From assembly GCF_000421605.1 (NCBI RefSeq), contig NZ_ATXI01000003.1:62001-126000 (forward strand): 64,000 bases of DNA, read 5' to 3'. Below, one piece after another: positions 57,517 to 64,000 of this stretch; the first letter of the stretch is position 1, and the number at the start of each line of letters is the position of its first letter. Under the pieces are notes generated by a model. That model did no database searches, was not told the DNA's origin, and worked only from the letters and a program-made list of their open reading frames with translations. The position numbers and the translations under genes were made by a program. The DNA comes from Thermodesulfobacterium thermophilum DSM 1276. Its GTDB lineage: Bacteria; Desulfobacterota; Thermodesulfobacteria; Thermodesulfobacteriales; Thermodesulfobacteriaceae.

Positions 57517-58569
57517 TCAATCTATGCAAATGTTTCTACAAGCTTCAACCGAATCAAAAGGTACCACATCATCACATCCACCATAAAAAAATTTTTCACA
57601 CTTATCTAAACCAGGTATAAAATATGCTCCCCAGAATAGTCCTTTACAGGGGCCCACTTGAGGTATTAAATAACATCTCTTTTTAATATCTATTTTTTTT
57701 CCTTGAGTTCTTTCCAAAGTTTCTTTTAAAAACAAAGCTATATTTTTTCTTCCTTTAAAAACGCAAAAGTCTAAATCCTTTTCTGTCGGAACATTACCTT
57801 TTTCAACAAGTAATTTAACAAGTTTTACCGAATCACTGTTAGTACAAACATAACTAATCGATTTTTCTTGTAATACATTAACACCTTTTCTTATTAAAAT
57901 ATCTACTATATCTTCATAGCCCTTTATTAAAGCTTTTTCCAATGTTTTTTCATTAACTGGTACACCCCAATTAATTAACATCAAACCTACTTTTTTGTGG
58001 CCTCTACTTAAAAATTCATTTAAAGTTTCTACATCGATGTTTTCTTTAACCTTAAATCCTTTTTGTACGCAAAGATTAAAAATTTCCATAATCTTTGAAT
58101 CTAAAGTTTCTGGATAAAAGACAAAATTATATAAAGGTATTTTCCCATAACCATCTTTGTAAACACAATCAGCCTTGTTTTGAATAAGAAAAGAAATGGT
58201 AGTTATGTCTCGTGCATAAAGTATTGCCTGATGTAAAGGAGTTTCTCCTATATTGTTGGGTGTATTGATATCTATCCCTTTTTCTAATAAAAGTCTAATG
58301 ATTTCTTTATAATTTTTCCTGACCGCATAGTGAAGTAAAGTATCTCCGTATTTATCTCGAATGTTTAGATCTTCTTGCTTTAATATATATTCTTTCATCC
58401 TCTCAGGATCTTCAGAAATCTCTTTTAATTCAGCAGTTATTGAATTTAACAATTTTTCGTAAAGATCGGCTGGAGCAGAGAATGATCGTATACTATGTAA
58501 AAGGAGAAGAAAAAAAGTTAGCAACAAAACTTGATAAATCCAAACTTTGTTATCAATAGAATTTTTCAC
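57517..58569 (-). CDS. Secreted ankyrin-repeat protein with C-terminal Kunitz/BPTI domain
   Basis: 350 residues, GTG start at 58569 with GAGGTC upstream. N-terminal signal/anchor helix (about 11-27), ankyrin repeats from about 70 (YGDTLLHYAVRKNYKEII, GETPLHQAI), then a Kunitz domain at 299-348. Its six cysteines are spaced 8, 15, 7, 11 and 3 apart, against 8, 15, 7, 12 and 3 in BPTI; GPCK and FYGGC are identical to the family hallmarks. The reactive P1 residue would be Lys, predicting inhibition of trypsin-like proteases. Confidence 0.85.
   Translation of the reverse strand: MKNSIDNKVWIYQVLLLTFFLLLLHSIRSFSAPADLYEKLLNSITAELKEISEDPERMKEYILKQEDLNIRDKYGDTLLHYAVRKNYKEIIRLLLEKGIDINTPNNIGETPLHQAILYARDITTISFLIQNKADCVYKDGYGKIPLYNFVFYPETLDSKIMEIFNLCVQKGFKVKENIDVETLNEFLSRGHKKVGLMLINWGVPVNEKTLEKALIKGYEDIVDILIRKGVNVLQEKSISYVCTNSDSVKLVKLLVEKGNVPTEKDLDFCVFKGRKNIALFLKETLERTQGKKIDIKKRCYLIPQVGPCKGLFWGAYFIPGLDKCEKFFYGGCDDVVPFDSVEACRNICID
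57526..57675 (-). other. Kunitz/BPTI inhibitor domain region
   Basis: Part of the preceding protein (residues 299-348). Segments CYLIPQVGPC, KGLFWGAYFIPGLDKC, EKFFYGGC, DDVVPFDSVEAC and RNIC give all six disulfide cysteines and the Lys P1 position after the second cysteine. Expected disulfides are 1-6, 2-4 and 3-5. Confidence 0.85.
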
Positions 58570-58604
58570 ATTTTTTGACCTCTATCTTTTCAATTAAATT
58601 TTTG

Positions 58605-58901
58605 TTACTTTAACTCTTTATCAATTTGAGGAGTAGGTGTTGGTATGTATTCCATTCCTCCTCCGCTTAAGTTTGAAGGCCTTGAGGTATCAAAGCCCTG
58701 CCCTGCCTGGTATCTCGATCTTTCCCAAGAACTATTTAGGTCTTTATAATTTCCAGGATGTGCTGAATCTTTTTCTGCTTGCCAGGAACTACCGGAAGTC
58801 CCTGAAGCCTGATCATAAGCAGAATCTTTAGCTATACAAACCCCAGATGATAAAAATACTACTACTCCTGCTAAACCAACCAAAAGTTTCAAGTTTTTCA
58901 T
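58605..58901 (-). CDS. Small secreted Ser/Gly-rich protein
   Basis: 98 residues. Signal peptide about 24 residues (ending CIA). The mature chain is polar and has no cysteine: SAYDQASGTSGSSWQAEKD and GGGMEYIPTPTPQ. ATG 58901 has an AAGGGGGTGGG site. Probably disordered and exported; not recognised. 35 bases upstream of the ankyrin-Kunitz gene. Confidence 0.6.
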   Translation of the reverse strand: MKNLKLLVGLAGVVVFLSSGVCIAKDSAYDQASGTSGSSWQAEKDSAHPGNYKDLNSSWERSRYQAGQGFDTSRPSNLSGGGMEYIPTPTPQIDKELK

Positions 58902-58924
58902 AACCCACCCCCTTAAATTTAAGG

Positions 58925-59191
58925 TTATTTACCGTGACCATACTGGCCTTTACGGTTAATATTAGGAACACTATATTTTGGCGAACCTCTAAGTCTTTCC
59001 TTGAAATCTTTGTTTTGGGTATCTGTATTTTTTGAGGAACTTGTTGAAGTATTGATTTCATAATTATTCGAAGATACCGTACTTGTTGAACTACTAACCG
59101 ATTGATTTGAATCGTTGGTAGCTTTAAGGTCTTTTATTAAAAATATACATATTAACAAACAAAAATTTAAAATAAAACTCTTTTTTTTCAT
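58925..59191 (-). CDS. Small secreted Ser/Thr/Asn-rich protein
   Basis: 88 residues from ATG 59191, chosen because AGGAGG lies just upstream and the following residues (MKKKSFILNFCLLICIFLI) are a signal peptide; an earlier ATG at 59299 would overlap paralogue 4 and lacks a ribosome site. The mature part is Ser/Thr/Asn-rich (SVSSSTSTVSSNNYEINTS) with a basic C-terminus. Function unknown. Confidence 0.55.
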   Translation of the reverse strand: MKKKSFILNFCLLICIFLIKDLKATNDSNQSVSSSTSTVSSNNYEINTSTSSSKNTDTQNKDFKERLRGSPKYSVPNINRKGQYGHGK

Positions 59192-59210
59192 CGTTAACCT
59201 CCTGCAAATT

Positions 59211-59501
59211 TTATAATATAGGCCCTTCCTCACATATTGTGTCATATTTTTTACATACAGGACGTAGAACGCAGGTTTTAGCTTCGCTATCAGGTCCAAC
59301 TATTTTACATTCCTCCTCTGTCCCCCATACTACACATACCTTTTTACAATGCATTTTTGTTTTTTGGTGATGATCTTTATGATTATCAGACTTATCCATG
59401 TCAGGCATCGGTCTTTCTTCAGCCATGCTGGCACTTCCACTAAGAAACACTAAAATAAAAGAAACCAAACAAAATAGAATTAAAAAAAACACCTTATTCA
59501 T
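59211..59501 (-). CDS. Small secreted six-cysteine protein, paralogue 4 (first gene of the island operon)
   Basis: 96 residues. Signal peptide about 27 residues (ending SMA), a His/Asp-rich linker (NHKDHHQKTKMH), then the C-x3-C-x8-C-x11-C-x5-C-x6-C core (CKKVCVVWGTEEEC, KIVGPDSEAKTC, CVLRPVC, CKKYDTIC). It shares the KIVGPDSE loop with paralogue 3. The His/Asp linker could bind metal. It is promoter-proximal in the operon. Confidence 0.8.
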   Translation of the reverse strand: MNKVFFLILFCLVSFILVFLSGSASMAEERPMPDMDKSDNHKDHHQKTKMHCKKVCVVWGTEEECKIVGPDSEAKTCVLRPVCKKYDTICEEGPIL

Positions 59502-59561
59502 AGTCTTACCTTCTATTTAAAAGAATTTTTAATTTATTAGTTAATTCCTATTAAAAATAAA

Positions 59562-59587
59562 ATTATATAATCTTTTTTTCTTGTCAA
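59562..59587 (-). promoter_or_regulatory. Putative promoter of the secreted-protein operon
   Basis: Minus-strand perfect TTGACA (59587-59582) and perfect TATAAT (59567-59562) but with a short 14-base spacer. The leader to ATG 59501 would be about 55 bases. The same short spacing occurs at the speD promoter, so a spacer-tolerant or activated promoter is possible. Confidence 0.5.
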
Positions 59588-60194
59588 TAGATAAAAATTT
59601 TTTTAATTTATATTTACTGTCGAGCATCCCCCTTTTGTTTTTCAATATAGATAGATATAAAATTTTTACCCACAAAAACTTTGTTTTGTTTTTGACCTTT
59701 TTGGATACACTATAAACTTTTAACCTATATAAAATGATTTTTTATTGTCTGACGGACTAAGAACAGAAGTTGCAATCAATATAGCTTAATCTTTGGAATC
59801 AACTACCAGTATTCACAAAAAATCCATAATAAATTTAACCTTCTTCAGAAAGCAAACAAGCTCTTATAAATTCTTTTAGAGAGACAAAGTGCTTAAGATT
59901 ACACGACTAAAAAACCTTTACCACTATAAATTCAACAAACAGAAAAGACGGTGTTGAAGATATTCTGGAAGACATTATAGAATACTGCCTTTTAGAGTTT
60001 TATTATCGTCAAAAAGAATCGCAGGCAAAGGCTAATTAGCTTAAGCATAGATTTAATTAGGCTTTCAGGCAAAAAGGGCAGGCAATTTTTATTACCTGAA
60101 GATTACCTGCAAATGCAGGCAAAAAGGATACGAAATTCCACTAAATTCCGTGAAAGGGATTTCTTAAAACCTTTGAAAAATCTTAAAAACCAAG

Positions 60195-60238
60195 CGCGCC
60201 CGGCAGGACTCGAACCTGCAACCTTTGGATTCGTAGTC
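60195..60238 (-). other. 3' half of tRNA-Arg(ACG): probable displaced attachment site
   Basis: On the minus strand the bases from 60238 down to 60195 form tRNA-Arg positions about 30-73: anticodon loop CTACGAA (anticodon ACG at 60234-60232), a 3' anticodon arm TCCAA, T arm GCAGG-TTCGAGT-CCTGC (60219-60203), acceptor strand CGGGCGC and discriminator G (60195). No CCA is encoded. The 5' half is missing; preceding bases do not pair with TCCAA beyond two pairs. This is the footprint left when an element integrates into a tRNA gene. Confidence 0.8.
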
Positions 60239-60301
60239 GGGTTTTTTCTCATTTTTTCTTTAATTTTCTCACTTTTTCTTCAATTTTTGATTGACAAAAA
60301 T

Positions 60302-60550
60302 TTAAAACGCTCTTTTATTGAATTTTTTGAGCTCCCCCGCTGGGATTAAAATTTTATTTCCTAATTTTGTGCTTGCAAGCTTGCCTTGTTTTACATATTT
60401 CCAAATTGTCTGAGGGTGCAGCCCGACAAGACTTGCAAATTCTGTTATCGTGTAAGCTTCCCTTTCTTTAGCCTCTTCTTTCACTACACGCTCAAACTCA
60501 TCAAGCAGATCTCTCATTATTTCAATCATCTCAATAAGCTTTTCTTTCAC
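60302..60550 (-). CDS. Excisionase-like helix-turn-helix protein
   Basis: 82 residues from GTG 60550 (GGAGGG six bases upstream). An N-terminal helix is followed by a MerR/excisionase-type winged helix: YTITEFASLVGLHPQTIWKYV and KLGNKILIPAGELKKF. It faces the tRNA fragment 60 bases away, as element xis genes often do. It could be an excisionase or a small repressor. No integrase is in the window. Confidence 0.75.
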   Translation of the reverse strand: MKEKLIEMIEIMRDLLDEFERVVKEEAKEREAYTITEFASLVGLHPQTIWKYVKQGKLASTKLGNKILIPAGELKKFNKRAF

Positions 60551-60865: not shown

Positions 60866-60989
60866 TTAAAAATTTTCAAAAATCTCAAAAATTCAACTTC
60901 TCAAATCTTCAAAAATTCTCTGTAAAAATCCCCCCCCAAAAAAGTTTTATAAAACAAAAAAAAGAAAAAAGTTTAAAAATTTTCAAAAA
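60866..60989. repeat. Pair of 17-bp direct repeats in AT-rich DNA
   Basis: TTAAAAATTTTCAAAAA occurs exactly at 60866-60882 and 60973-60989, 107 bases apart. Short A-tract repeats fill the area, so chance is possible; an iteron or unwinding role is speculative. Confidence 0.35.
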
Positions 60990-61124
60990 GACTCAAAATC
61001 CTGAAAAAGCTCAAATTTTTCAGTTATTACCTCTTCAATATTTTAAAAATCTTTTCAAAAATCCTTAAACCCCCAAAAAAAGCATAAAAAAACGCTATTT
61101 TCTTAAATTACTGAAAGCTAAGTC

Positions 61125-61154
61125 CCGCGGGTTTAATTACAACCCGCGGTTTTT
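61125..61154 (+). terminator. Inverted repeat with T-run, first of two terminator-like hairpins
   Basis: CCGCGGGTT (61125-61133), 7-base loop, AACCCGCGG (61141-61149), then TTTTT: a perfect 9-bp GC-rich stem, a strong intrinsic terminator on the plus strand. Confidence 0.7.
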
Positions 61155-61156
61155 AC

Positions 61157-61178
61157 GGGGCTTCCCCCTTTTTTTTTT
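61157..61178 (+). terminator. Second terminator-like hairpin with long T-run
   Basis: GGGG (61157-61160), CTT loop, CCCC (61164-61167), one C and ten T. It lies just upstream of the 61235 gene, so it ends a plus-strand transcript arising in the hairpin region or attenuates read-through into the operon. Confidence 0.6.
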
Positions 61179-61234
61179 ATGAGTTGTTACTGCACACACA
61201 TTTAATATTTAAAAAACTTTAAAAGGGGGGACAA

Positions 61235-61654
61235 ATGAACCCGACCCCGCAACAGCTAAATTGGAATCTTATCTACAATTTTTCAGAGCATATAATAAAA
61301 AAACGCTTCTGGGACAGTCGCTATGAAGTAAAAGACATCGTTCAAGAGTTTCTTTTGTATCTTCTTGGAGTAATCAAAAAAAACCCTTCTCCCTGGTTTG
61401 AAGTTTCTAAAAAAACTTCTCTCATTTACAAAAGAATTTCCTGGGAGTTCTCAAAGTTTATCACACGCTATGACTATACTCATTTGCAGTCCCTCATCAC
61501 CCCCGGGTGGCACGAAAAAAACGGAAAAAACGGAAAAAACGGAAAAAACAACAAAGGACAGCTCAAGTTTTTTGACACAGAAGAAAAAAAAGAAGTGTTC
61601 TGCATTGTGAGCTTTGAAGACTTTAAAAAACAAGATAAGGGGGAGAAACTATGA
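61235..61654 (+). CDS. Unknown element protein, weakly sigma-factor-like
   Basis: 139 residues, ATG 61235 after AAAAGGGGGG. Residues 30-75 (YEVKDIVQEFLLYLLGVI) faintly resemble region 2 of ECF sigma factors, but region 4 is absent. Three 9-bp repeats (61522-61548) encode a GKN tract. Its stop overlaps the next start by 4 bases (ATGA), so it is coupled to the primase-like gene. Confidence 0.55.
   Translation: MNPTPQQLNWNLIYNFSEHIIKKRFWDSRYEVKDIVQEFLLYLLGVIKKNPSPWFEVSKKTSLIYKRISWEFSKFITRYDYTHLQSLITPGWHEKNGKNGKNGKNNKGQLKFFDTEEKKEVFCIVSFEDFKKQDKGEKL
61522..61548 (+). repeat. Three tandem 9-bp repeats inside the 61235 gene
   Basis: CGGAAAAAA is repeated three times at 61522-61530, 61531-61539 and 61540-61548, giving a short Gly-Lys-Asn tract. 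In-frame slippage can change its length. Confidence 0.8.
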
Positions 61655-63579
61655 TAATAAAAGAAAAAAATAATACAATCAATTCAATTCTTTCAGAAAT
61701 GTATATTAACACTTTCACAGAAAGCATTAATACAGTCTTCAAAACTTTTTTCTCAACTGAGCTTGAAGAAGACGAATACATTGAAGTAGTCTTTGACAGT
61801 GCTGATAAGCAGTTTAACAAAGCAAAACACGTAAAAACTTTTGAAGAGTTTCTCTTTCTTGTGAAAAGTCTTGACAAAAAGTTTAACGTGACATTTTGTC
61901 CTGCAGTGAGAAAAATTACAGAAGACAAAAAAAACAGAAGAACAGGGTTAGAAAACATTTCAAGAGTAAAAGGCATTGTTCTTGATGTAGAGAAGAAAAA
62001 CGATCACAACACGAAAAAAGAAAGCACAGAAGTCATTAAACTTATAGACTCAGTTTACAGTCAGCTCCCTGATGAGTTGAAACAAGCTGTTTTCTATACC
62101 GCCTACACCGGGGGCGGAGGGCAGATAGCAATCGTTTTCAACCGCTTTCTTGACAGAGAAAAAGCAAAAGAAGTTTACGAGAAACTGAAAGAATATCTTT
62201 CGCATGTTGAAAACGTTGACTTGATGAGTTTCAACATTGCTGGCTGTCAAAGGCTGATTGGGACTACAAACTTGAAATATGATGTGCAGAGCTTTCTTCT
62301 CTGGAAAAATCCCAGGGTGGTTCCTATTGACATTGAAACGTTTTTGAAAGGTGCTGAAGAATCAGAAAATGCAGTAAACGAACTTTCTGTTGAAGTTGAA
62401 AAAGCAACTGAAAAGCAAGTAGTTTTTCATAGAATAGACAAAGACTGCATTGACGAAATCAAAAGAAGAGTATCGTTTGCAAGCATTTTTGACGAAATCG
62501 GAGTGCAGTATAAAAGATATGCCCACTACCTTTCTGTAATTTGCCCCTTCCATTCCGAAAGGCACCCTTCTTTCGTAGTTTTTTTCTCAAATTCCTATCG
62601 GGACTGGGAGCTTGCTGTTGATTATCACGACAATGAAAGATACGACATCATAAGCTTTGTACAAAAATACTACGACATAAGCTTTTCAAAAGCTATTGAA
62701 ATGCTTGCCGAAAAAGCGGGCATAAAAGTAAAAAAACTTAGAGGAAGACCTAAAAAAGAGGAAGAGGGAGAAGAAGAGGAAAAAATAACAGATGCGAGAG
62801 AGTTTTTTAGCATTCTTGGCGTTGAAAAAATTCTTAGATACGTTGAAGAAGAAGAGCATCACTACGAATTTCACTTTCAGGACAAGGATGGGATGAGACA
62901 CGTTTTGAAGATGGCGTTCATAGACCTAATGTATGATGCCAAAAAATTTTTAACTGCATGGGGGGCAAAAAGCGGAATTTCCCCCATTGTAGCCCTGAAT
63001 GGTGTAAAGTATTCATGGAGAGATATACTAAGCAGTCTTGACGAAATAGCCGAGAAGCACGAATACTTCTACAGAGCCTCAGAAAAAGAACTTCTTGCCG
63101 AAGAGCTAAGACAATTCATCATCTCTCAACCTTTTACTGATGACCTTGATGGAATTACTATGCAAAACGCTGCGGCACTCAAATATGTAGAAGAGGAGAA
63201 AGTCTATATCTCTCTCACTTCTCTTGCAACAAAAATCCGCTACCTTGCACCCCATTTACCTGCAAGTATCAAAAAACTTGTTGAACTTCTGCAATACTTA
63301 GGGTGCAGAAACAAAAGATTGAAAAAAGGGGAAAAAAAATACAGATTGTGGGAGCTTCCTGGGAACCCAGAAGATTGGAGAGTGCCTGCAAAAACAAAGA
63401 CAGAGCAGCCTGAAATAAAATCTGAGGCTGTTGAAGAAAAAGAAGAAAAAAGGGTGTCTGAAACCAAAGAAAGAAAAGGAGAAAAGAAAGAAGAGGAAAG
63501 AATAGTAAAAGACTTCTGGGACTGGAGCAAAGTTCAGGAGGAGATTGAATCGGTGAAAGAATCCGAAATCCCTTTTTAG
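61651..63579 (+). CDS. Primase-like protein: archaeo-eukaryotic primase-like N-half and degenerate CHC2 zinc-finger region
   Basis: 642 residues. The N-half has features of AEP/PrimPol primases: D112-x-E114 in GIVLDVEKK, TGGGGQIAIVFNR near 153-165 and CQRLIGTTNLKYD near 200-211. Residues 275-365 align with the DnaG zinc-finger region (CPFHSERHPSFVV at 298-310, then IISFVQKYYDISFSKAIEMLAEKAGI), but the FKCFGC pair is replaced by VDYHD near 323-327, so zinc binding is doubtful. The tail is charged. Likely the element's replication initiator or primase. Confidence 0.65.
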   Translation: MIIKEKNNTINSILSEMYINTFTESINTVFKTFFSTELEEDEYIEVVFDSADKQFNKAKHVKTFEEFLFLVKSLDKKFNVTFCPAVRKITEDKKNRRTGLENISRVKGIVLDVEKKNDHNTKKESTEVIKLIDSVYSQLPDELKQAVFYTAYTGGGGQIAIVFNRFLDREKAKEVYEKLKEYLSHVENVDLMSFNIAGCQRLIGTTNLKYDVQSFLLWKNPRVVPIDIETFLKGAEESENAVNELSVEVEKATEKQVVFHRIDKDCIDEIKRRVSFASIFDEIGVQYKRYAHYLSVICPFHSERHPSFVVFFSNSYRDWELAVDYHDNERYDIISFVQKYYDISFSKAIEMLAEKAGIKVKKLRGRPKKEEEGEEEEKITDAREFFSILGVEKILRYVEEEEHHYEFHFQDKDGMRHVLKMAFIDLMYDAKKFLTAWGAKSGISPIVALNGVKYSWRDILSSLDEIAEKHEYFYRASEKELLAEELRQFIISQPFTDDLDGITMQNAAALKYVEEEKVYISLTSLATKIRYLAPHLPASIKKLVELLQYLGCRNKRLKKGEKKYRLWELPGNPEDWRVPAKTKTEQPEIKSEAVEEKEEKRVSETKERKGEKKEEERIVKDFWDWSKVQEEIESVKESEIPF

Positions 63580-63589
63580 GAGGTGAGCT

Positions 63590-64000
63590 ATGGGCAAGGT
63601 AATAAAGATCTTTGGCCCCCCGGGGACAGGAAAAACAACCTCAATTGTTTCTCTTTTAAAAAAGCTTATTGCAAGAAAGGAAATTAGAGAAAAAAGCGTT
63701 TACGCTGTCTCCCTTACAAAAGCAACGAAGTATGCCTTTCTCAAAAAGTGCAGAGATGAAGGAATCGAAATCCCCCCCGCAAACGTGAGAACCCTTCACA
63801 GTTTTGCTTACAAAAAACTTAAAGAAGAGGGTGAAAAAGTGAAATTAATTAAAGCGGAGGAACTCAAAGAATTTTTCAGGGAAAAAGGCTTTGAGTTTGA
63901 GATTGGAGAACTGGACGAAGAAAACTCATATTCACAATCTGAATATTCAGACCTTCCAGGGAATCGGGCTTTTGCGGGTTTTCAAAAACTGAGACTTACC
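63590..64000 (+). CDS. UvrD/PcrA-like superfamily 1 helicase (3' end outside window)
   Basis: 137 visible residues, open to the window end. ATG 63590 follows AGGAGGTGAG. Walker A FGPPGTGKTTSI at residues 8-19, motif Ia-like VSLTKATKYAFL, and NVRTLHSFAYKKL typical of UvrD-family helicases. With the primase-like gene 10 bases upstream it forms a replication module of the element. Confidence 0.85.
   Translation, partial: MGKVIKIFGPPGTGKTTSIVSLLKKLIARKEIREKSVYAVSLTKATKYAFLKKCRDEGIEIPPANVRTLHSFAYKKLKEEGEKVKLIKAEELKEFFREKGFEFEIGELDEENSYSQSEYSDLPGNRAFAGFQKLRLT

Follow-up and report, generated by a model that had tools for sequence, protein, structure and literature searches.

A probable integrative mobilizable element carrying its own coupling protein at tRNA-Arg(ACG) in Thermodesulfobacterium thermophilum

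The tRNA-Arg(ACG) gene of Thermodesulfobacterium thermophilum DSM 1276 is probably occupied by an integrative mobilizable element (IME) of roughly 18 kb that carries its own coupling protein. One end of the element lies in the stretch of 64,000 nucleotides analysed here (the window; positions 62001-126000 of contig C3, in a genome of 46 contigs and 1.79 Mb), and the other end, where the tRNA is left functional, lies on contig C17. Most of the DNA-processing functions needed for conjugation are encoded in the element, but no recognisable transfer pore. The integrated copy is bounded by 44-bp direct repeats (attL/attR), and the corresponding empty attB is known from a congener, G006.

At positions 60195-60238 of the window, the minus strand repeats 44 nt from the 3' part of tRNA-Arg(ACG) without a mismatch; the reverse complement of these positions reads GACTACGAATCCAAAGGTTGCAGGTTCGAGTCCTGCCGGGCGCG. 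The first-pass annotation of this DNA had reported an isolated half tRNA over 60195-60241; the half itself is confirmed by identity at 44 of 44 nucleotides (BLAST E 7e-17) to positions 22367-22410 of C17 in the same genome, while the three bases at the right, 60239-60241, are not tRNA. The C17 copy falls inside an intact tRNA-Arg with anticodon ACG (74.4 bits with Rfam, and called by ARAGORN), which is the single intact gene of this kind in the genome and sits on C17, not C3; it is also the only other place in the genome with all 44 bases. The repeated block begins two bases 5' of the anticodon loop and extends as far as the discriminator base. A search with the anticodon-arm motif (18 nt, at most three mismatches) found a single place, this fragment, with 0.01 expected, and the next-best tRNA-like matches in the genome were ordinary other tRNA genes (84-93% over 25-33 nt). 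No whole tRNA gene was found in the 64-kb window by searches that included Rfam, whose sole sub-threshold match there, YrlA-like, lies on the tRNA fragment. The 78-aa ORF called across the fragment (60113-60349, plus strand) is likely spurious as a gene, its 'RPAGLEPATFGF' being the translated antisense of the tRNA fragment.

Both junctions can be placed by comparison with G006. Upstream of the intact tRNA on C17 lie a SIR2-like gene and then the 5' half of the tRNA, 99.4% identical to G006 over 1.4 kb, and this identity is lost where the 44-bp core ends on its 3' side. To the left of the window fragment, beyond its 3' end, positions 57517-60194 are about 91% identical to contig C11 of G006 just downstream of its intact tRNA-Arg, and here the match breaks off where the core begins on its 5' side. 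A single intact tRNA-Arg(ACG) connects both flanks in G006, and this locus is the empty site (attB). Because G006 joins the left flank of the fragment directly to the tRNA, that flank is original chromosomal sequence from downstream of the tRNA, outside the element, and the att core at 60195-60238 (minus strand) is the left junction of the element, made of the displaced 3' part of the tRNA. The empty site therefore fixes the direction, with the host to the left of 60195 and the element to the right, in agreement with the earlier deduction that the displaced half keeps the left flank and that the element lies rightward. Two further genomes were considered as empty sites and rejected: in G013 an intact tRNA is followed by a different flank, one that contains an IS remnant, and in G010 the sequence downstream of an intact tRNA is likewise different.

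The flanks are unequal in their similarity to G006, at 99% on the SIR2/tRNA side (L051:9000-10411) and 91% on the other (L052:556-2239), possibly through recent recombination on one side. The left flank encodes, at 57517-58569 on the minus strand, an ankyrin-repeat protein that carries a Kunitz/BPTI domain at its C-terminus (PF00014, 30.3 bits, cut-off 21), which is unusual in a bacterium and has homologues in G006 (87%) and G010 (47%).

The part of the element on C3 begins with an excisionase-like (Xis/RDF) helix-turn-helix protein of 82 aa (60302-60550, minus strand), which scores 37.0 bits against TIGR01764 'excise' (cut-off 28.8) and 40.3 bits against Pfam HTH_17. A block of replication genes on the plus strand opens with a small ORF of 139 aa (61235-61654) for which profile searches gave no family match. 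It is followed by a primase-like protein of 642 aa with a DnaG-type CHC2 zinc ribbon (61651-63579; PF01807, 46 bits; TIGR01391, 52 bits, partial) and by a UvrD/Rep-like helicase of 532 aa (from 63590 to the window end at 64000 and onward on C3; PF00580, 86 bits). The excisionase-like gene, primase and helicase named to the right of the fragment by the first-pass annotation are thus all supported by profile matches. Ahead of the replication genes, 60920-61230 is a long A/T-rich stretch with runs of poly-C and poly-A and a GC-rich inverted repeat near 61120-61160; it could hold an oriT or a replication origin, or be simply a terminator. Beyond the window, after the helicase, C3 encodes a MobF/TrwC relaxase fused to a helicase (1060 aa, L052:7996-11178; PF08751, 142 bits; NF041492 MobF, 130 bits, cut-off 100). 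Two exported-looking proteins without a family match in the profile searches come next, and the contig then ends in an IS256-type copy.

On C17 the element starts about 130 nt beyond the intact tRNA with a tyrosine integrase of 399 aa (PF00589, 111 bits), whose sequence contains the tyrosine-recombinase motifs R, HxxR, GH and Y. Exported-looking and small proteins follow the integrase, and a 178-aa protein is also encoded in this part; several of the small element proteins had no family match in profile searches. The minus strand further encodes a TraD/TrwB-type coupling ATPase of 432 aa, F-type TraD-like (L051:13957-15255; PF10412, 320 bits), and, 11 nt upstream of it, a 155-aa protein that by the appearance of its sequence looks like the membrane-spanning N-terminal part of a coupling protein (L051:15267-15734). 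The ATPase ORF has a good ribosome-binding site of its own, GGAGG, ahead of its start codon, and the TraD-like coupling protein seems to be divided between two genes, one for the ATPase and a small one whose product resembles a membrane protein. An intact tRNA-Arg(ACG) sharing the 44 bases, with a tyrosine integrase adjacent to it, had been predicted from the window, and both are present on C17. The prediction placed them rightward of the fragment; the tRNA exists but is not on the same contig, because the assembly breaks at the IS copy inside the element.

The two contigs can be connected across this IS. C3 breaks off within the left end of an IS element, and the right end of that IS, in matching orientation, makes up the final 41 bases of C17. 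As a yardstick, G013 carries a complete copy of 1339 bp, with a transposase of the Mutator/IS256 family and an 8-bp target duplication, CTTTCTCT. In T. thermophilum the octamer TAAAAAAA stands just before the IS on C3 and just after it on C17 (reversed), and these matching 8-bp duplications indicate that C3 and C17 flank one IS copy; the other IS ends in the genome have different octamers, except for the pair C24/C11, which match each other. The simplest order, strongly supported by these repeats, would be C3 - IS - C17 (reversed), with one IS copy between C3:132876 and C17:28785. Since the octamer is A-rich and the junction is deduced from it instead of being sequenced directly, the link is strong but short of proof. 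Given this order, the element measures about 18.4 kb from core to core (10,682 + 1,339 + 6,419 bp) and would have been about 17 kb before the IS arrived, an insertion that may have damaged expression.

The assignment to the IMEs follows from four features. The element has its own site-specific integrase, the 399-aa tyrosine recombinase, and is flanked by the 44-bp direct repeats with an empty attB in G006. It encodes a MobF/TrwC relaxase that scores above the NF041492 cut-off, while the oriT was not located. A complete transfer pore of its own is lacking within the searched genome, with a small gap left by the unreadable small contigs. In particular, searches of the genome with TraC_F_IV and P-loop_TraG (TraC/VirB4 ATPase) gave no match above cut-off, while the controls matched in the same searches, and inspection by eye of contigs 15, 16 and 18-36 revealed no recognisable pore genes; the ends of contigs 37-46, which are 1-2.7 kb long, read N, and these contigs stand outside these negatives. 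Because the genome has no recognisable TraC/VirB4 ATPase, the element looks mobilizable and not self-transmissible, and the mating-pair-formation genes with a VirB4/TraC ATPase that define an integrative conjugative element (ICE) were not found in the contigs searched. A very divergent pore ATPase could be missed by profile searches, and the two exported-looking proteins and the several small proteins without a family could be pore parts. A prophage was also considered and ruled out, as comparison of the element's proteins with Pfam and PHROGs gave no structural phage gene (capsid, terminase or portal); the weak score of the excisionase against a terminase small subunit reflects their shared helix-turn-helix. 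The reading of the fragment as the left end of an integrated element was correct in every testable part; that the element is of conjugation type was missed because the relaxase and coupling genes lie outside the window.

Among the alternatives, the one that we take most seriously, although we consider it unlikely, is a decayed ICE whose own F-type transfer pore has been lost, so that the relaxase and coupling protein are remnants. MobF relaxases are frequently found with F-type pores (PMC3158045), such pores occur in the genus, and an IS lies between the two halves of the element. However, the 8-bp duplication argues for a simple insertion of the IS without deletion at that place, and the ORFs of the relaxase, coupling ATPase, integrase and primase are all open. 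A complete ICE whose pore lies in sequence absent from the assembly appears very improbable: the assembly does break here, and ten tiny contigs gave N where they were examined, but the matching duplication leaves room for just one IS copy between the contigs, contigs 18-36 are without recognisable pore genes by eye, and TraC and P-loop_TraG are absent above cut-off from the whole genome.

Plain pseudogene fragments of tRNAs do exist, and the window fragment might have arisen by chance as a pseudogene or by partial duplication of a tRNA, without any mobile element. We regard this as hardly credible in view of the exact att-type core, the integrase that adjoins the intact copy, the empty site in G006 and the excisionase-like gene beside the fragment.

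On the IME reading, the tyrosine integrase recombined a 44-bp attP core with the 3' part of the tRNA gene, to which it is identical. The tRNA was rebuilt at the integrase end with the 3' part brought by the element, and the host's original 3' part was displaced to the other end, where it forms the window fragment, an arrangement that can be read directly from the DNA. We infer excision, the use of a helper pore and the roles of primase and helicase as follows. At the left end, the excisionase-like protein should promote excision of the element as a circle, after which the MobF relaxase-helicase would nick an oriT. The strand would pass through the TraD-like coupling protein encoded by the element to the pore of an F-type helper, with primase and helicase helping to make or unwind DNA around transfer. 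The congener G009 has the F-type pore genes TraC, TraE, TraU, TraN, TrbI-like and S26 peptidase, and G008 has TraC and S26 peptidase, so a fitting helper exists in the genus. That this is a thermophile IME which provides its own MobF relaxase, split F-type coupling protein, primase and helicase, and borrows only the F-type pore from other species of the genus, is a reading whose chances we hold to be evenly balanced.

A review in 2017 stated that no canonical IME with a MobF relaxase had been reported, and listed two IMEs of Streptococcus that encode a coupling protein themselves (PMC5704250). MobF IMEs integrated at tRNA genes, including tRNA-Arg, were then described in Mesorhizobium by a survey in 2021, and those Mesorhizobium elements that lack traACD carry a VirD4-like coupling protein (PMC8627217). 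Since MobF IMEs at tRNA genes are published, the kind was already known, and the view of the present element as the first of its kind, taken from the 2017 review, was dropped; the individual element is new. It resembles the Mesorhizobium IMEs in its tRNA-gene site, MobF-family relaxase, RDF/excisionase-type gene and lack of a pore. It differs in phylum and in that most of those have a Ti-like TraA locus, whereas the present element has a TrwC/TraI-like relaxase and an F-type TraD-like coupling protein, the membrane part of which is apparently a separate ORF. The domain architecture of the relaxase-helicase and coupling ATPase is that of F and R388 (TraI/TrwC, TraD/TrwB), but the relaxase has around 30% identity to those of plasmids, and the element is chromosomally integrated and has no pore genes. 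Scans of collections of genome contigs and viral contigs returned no relatives of the integrase and relaxase.

Other genomes of the order have integrases at the same target gene. That of G030 at tRNA-Arg(ACG) is 46% identical, G018 has a related one there as a broken gene (pseudogene), and G012 has one (35%) with its own displaced tRNA fragment of 45 bases; the cargo of all three is different from that of the present element or cut by contig ends. In G012, a congener, the integrase adjoins the displaced fragment and not the intact tRNA as here, and this locus (L085:240-1667, contig C156), with a different integrase, an excisionase-like ORF and a displaced tRNA-Arg(ACG) 3' fragment, represents an element that occupies this tRNA independently. 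Integrases in this order share the tRNA-Arg(ACG) gene as an integration site.

While ordinary as a kind, this is a well-bounded element of conjugation type, with a defined attachment core and an observed empty site, in a lineage for which the open-access papers searched, of limited coverage, described no integrative element. It suggests that F-type conjugation is one way in which genes are transferred in high-temperature sulfate reducers.
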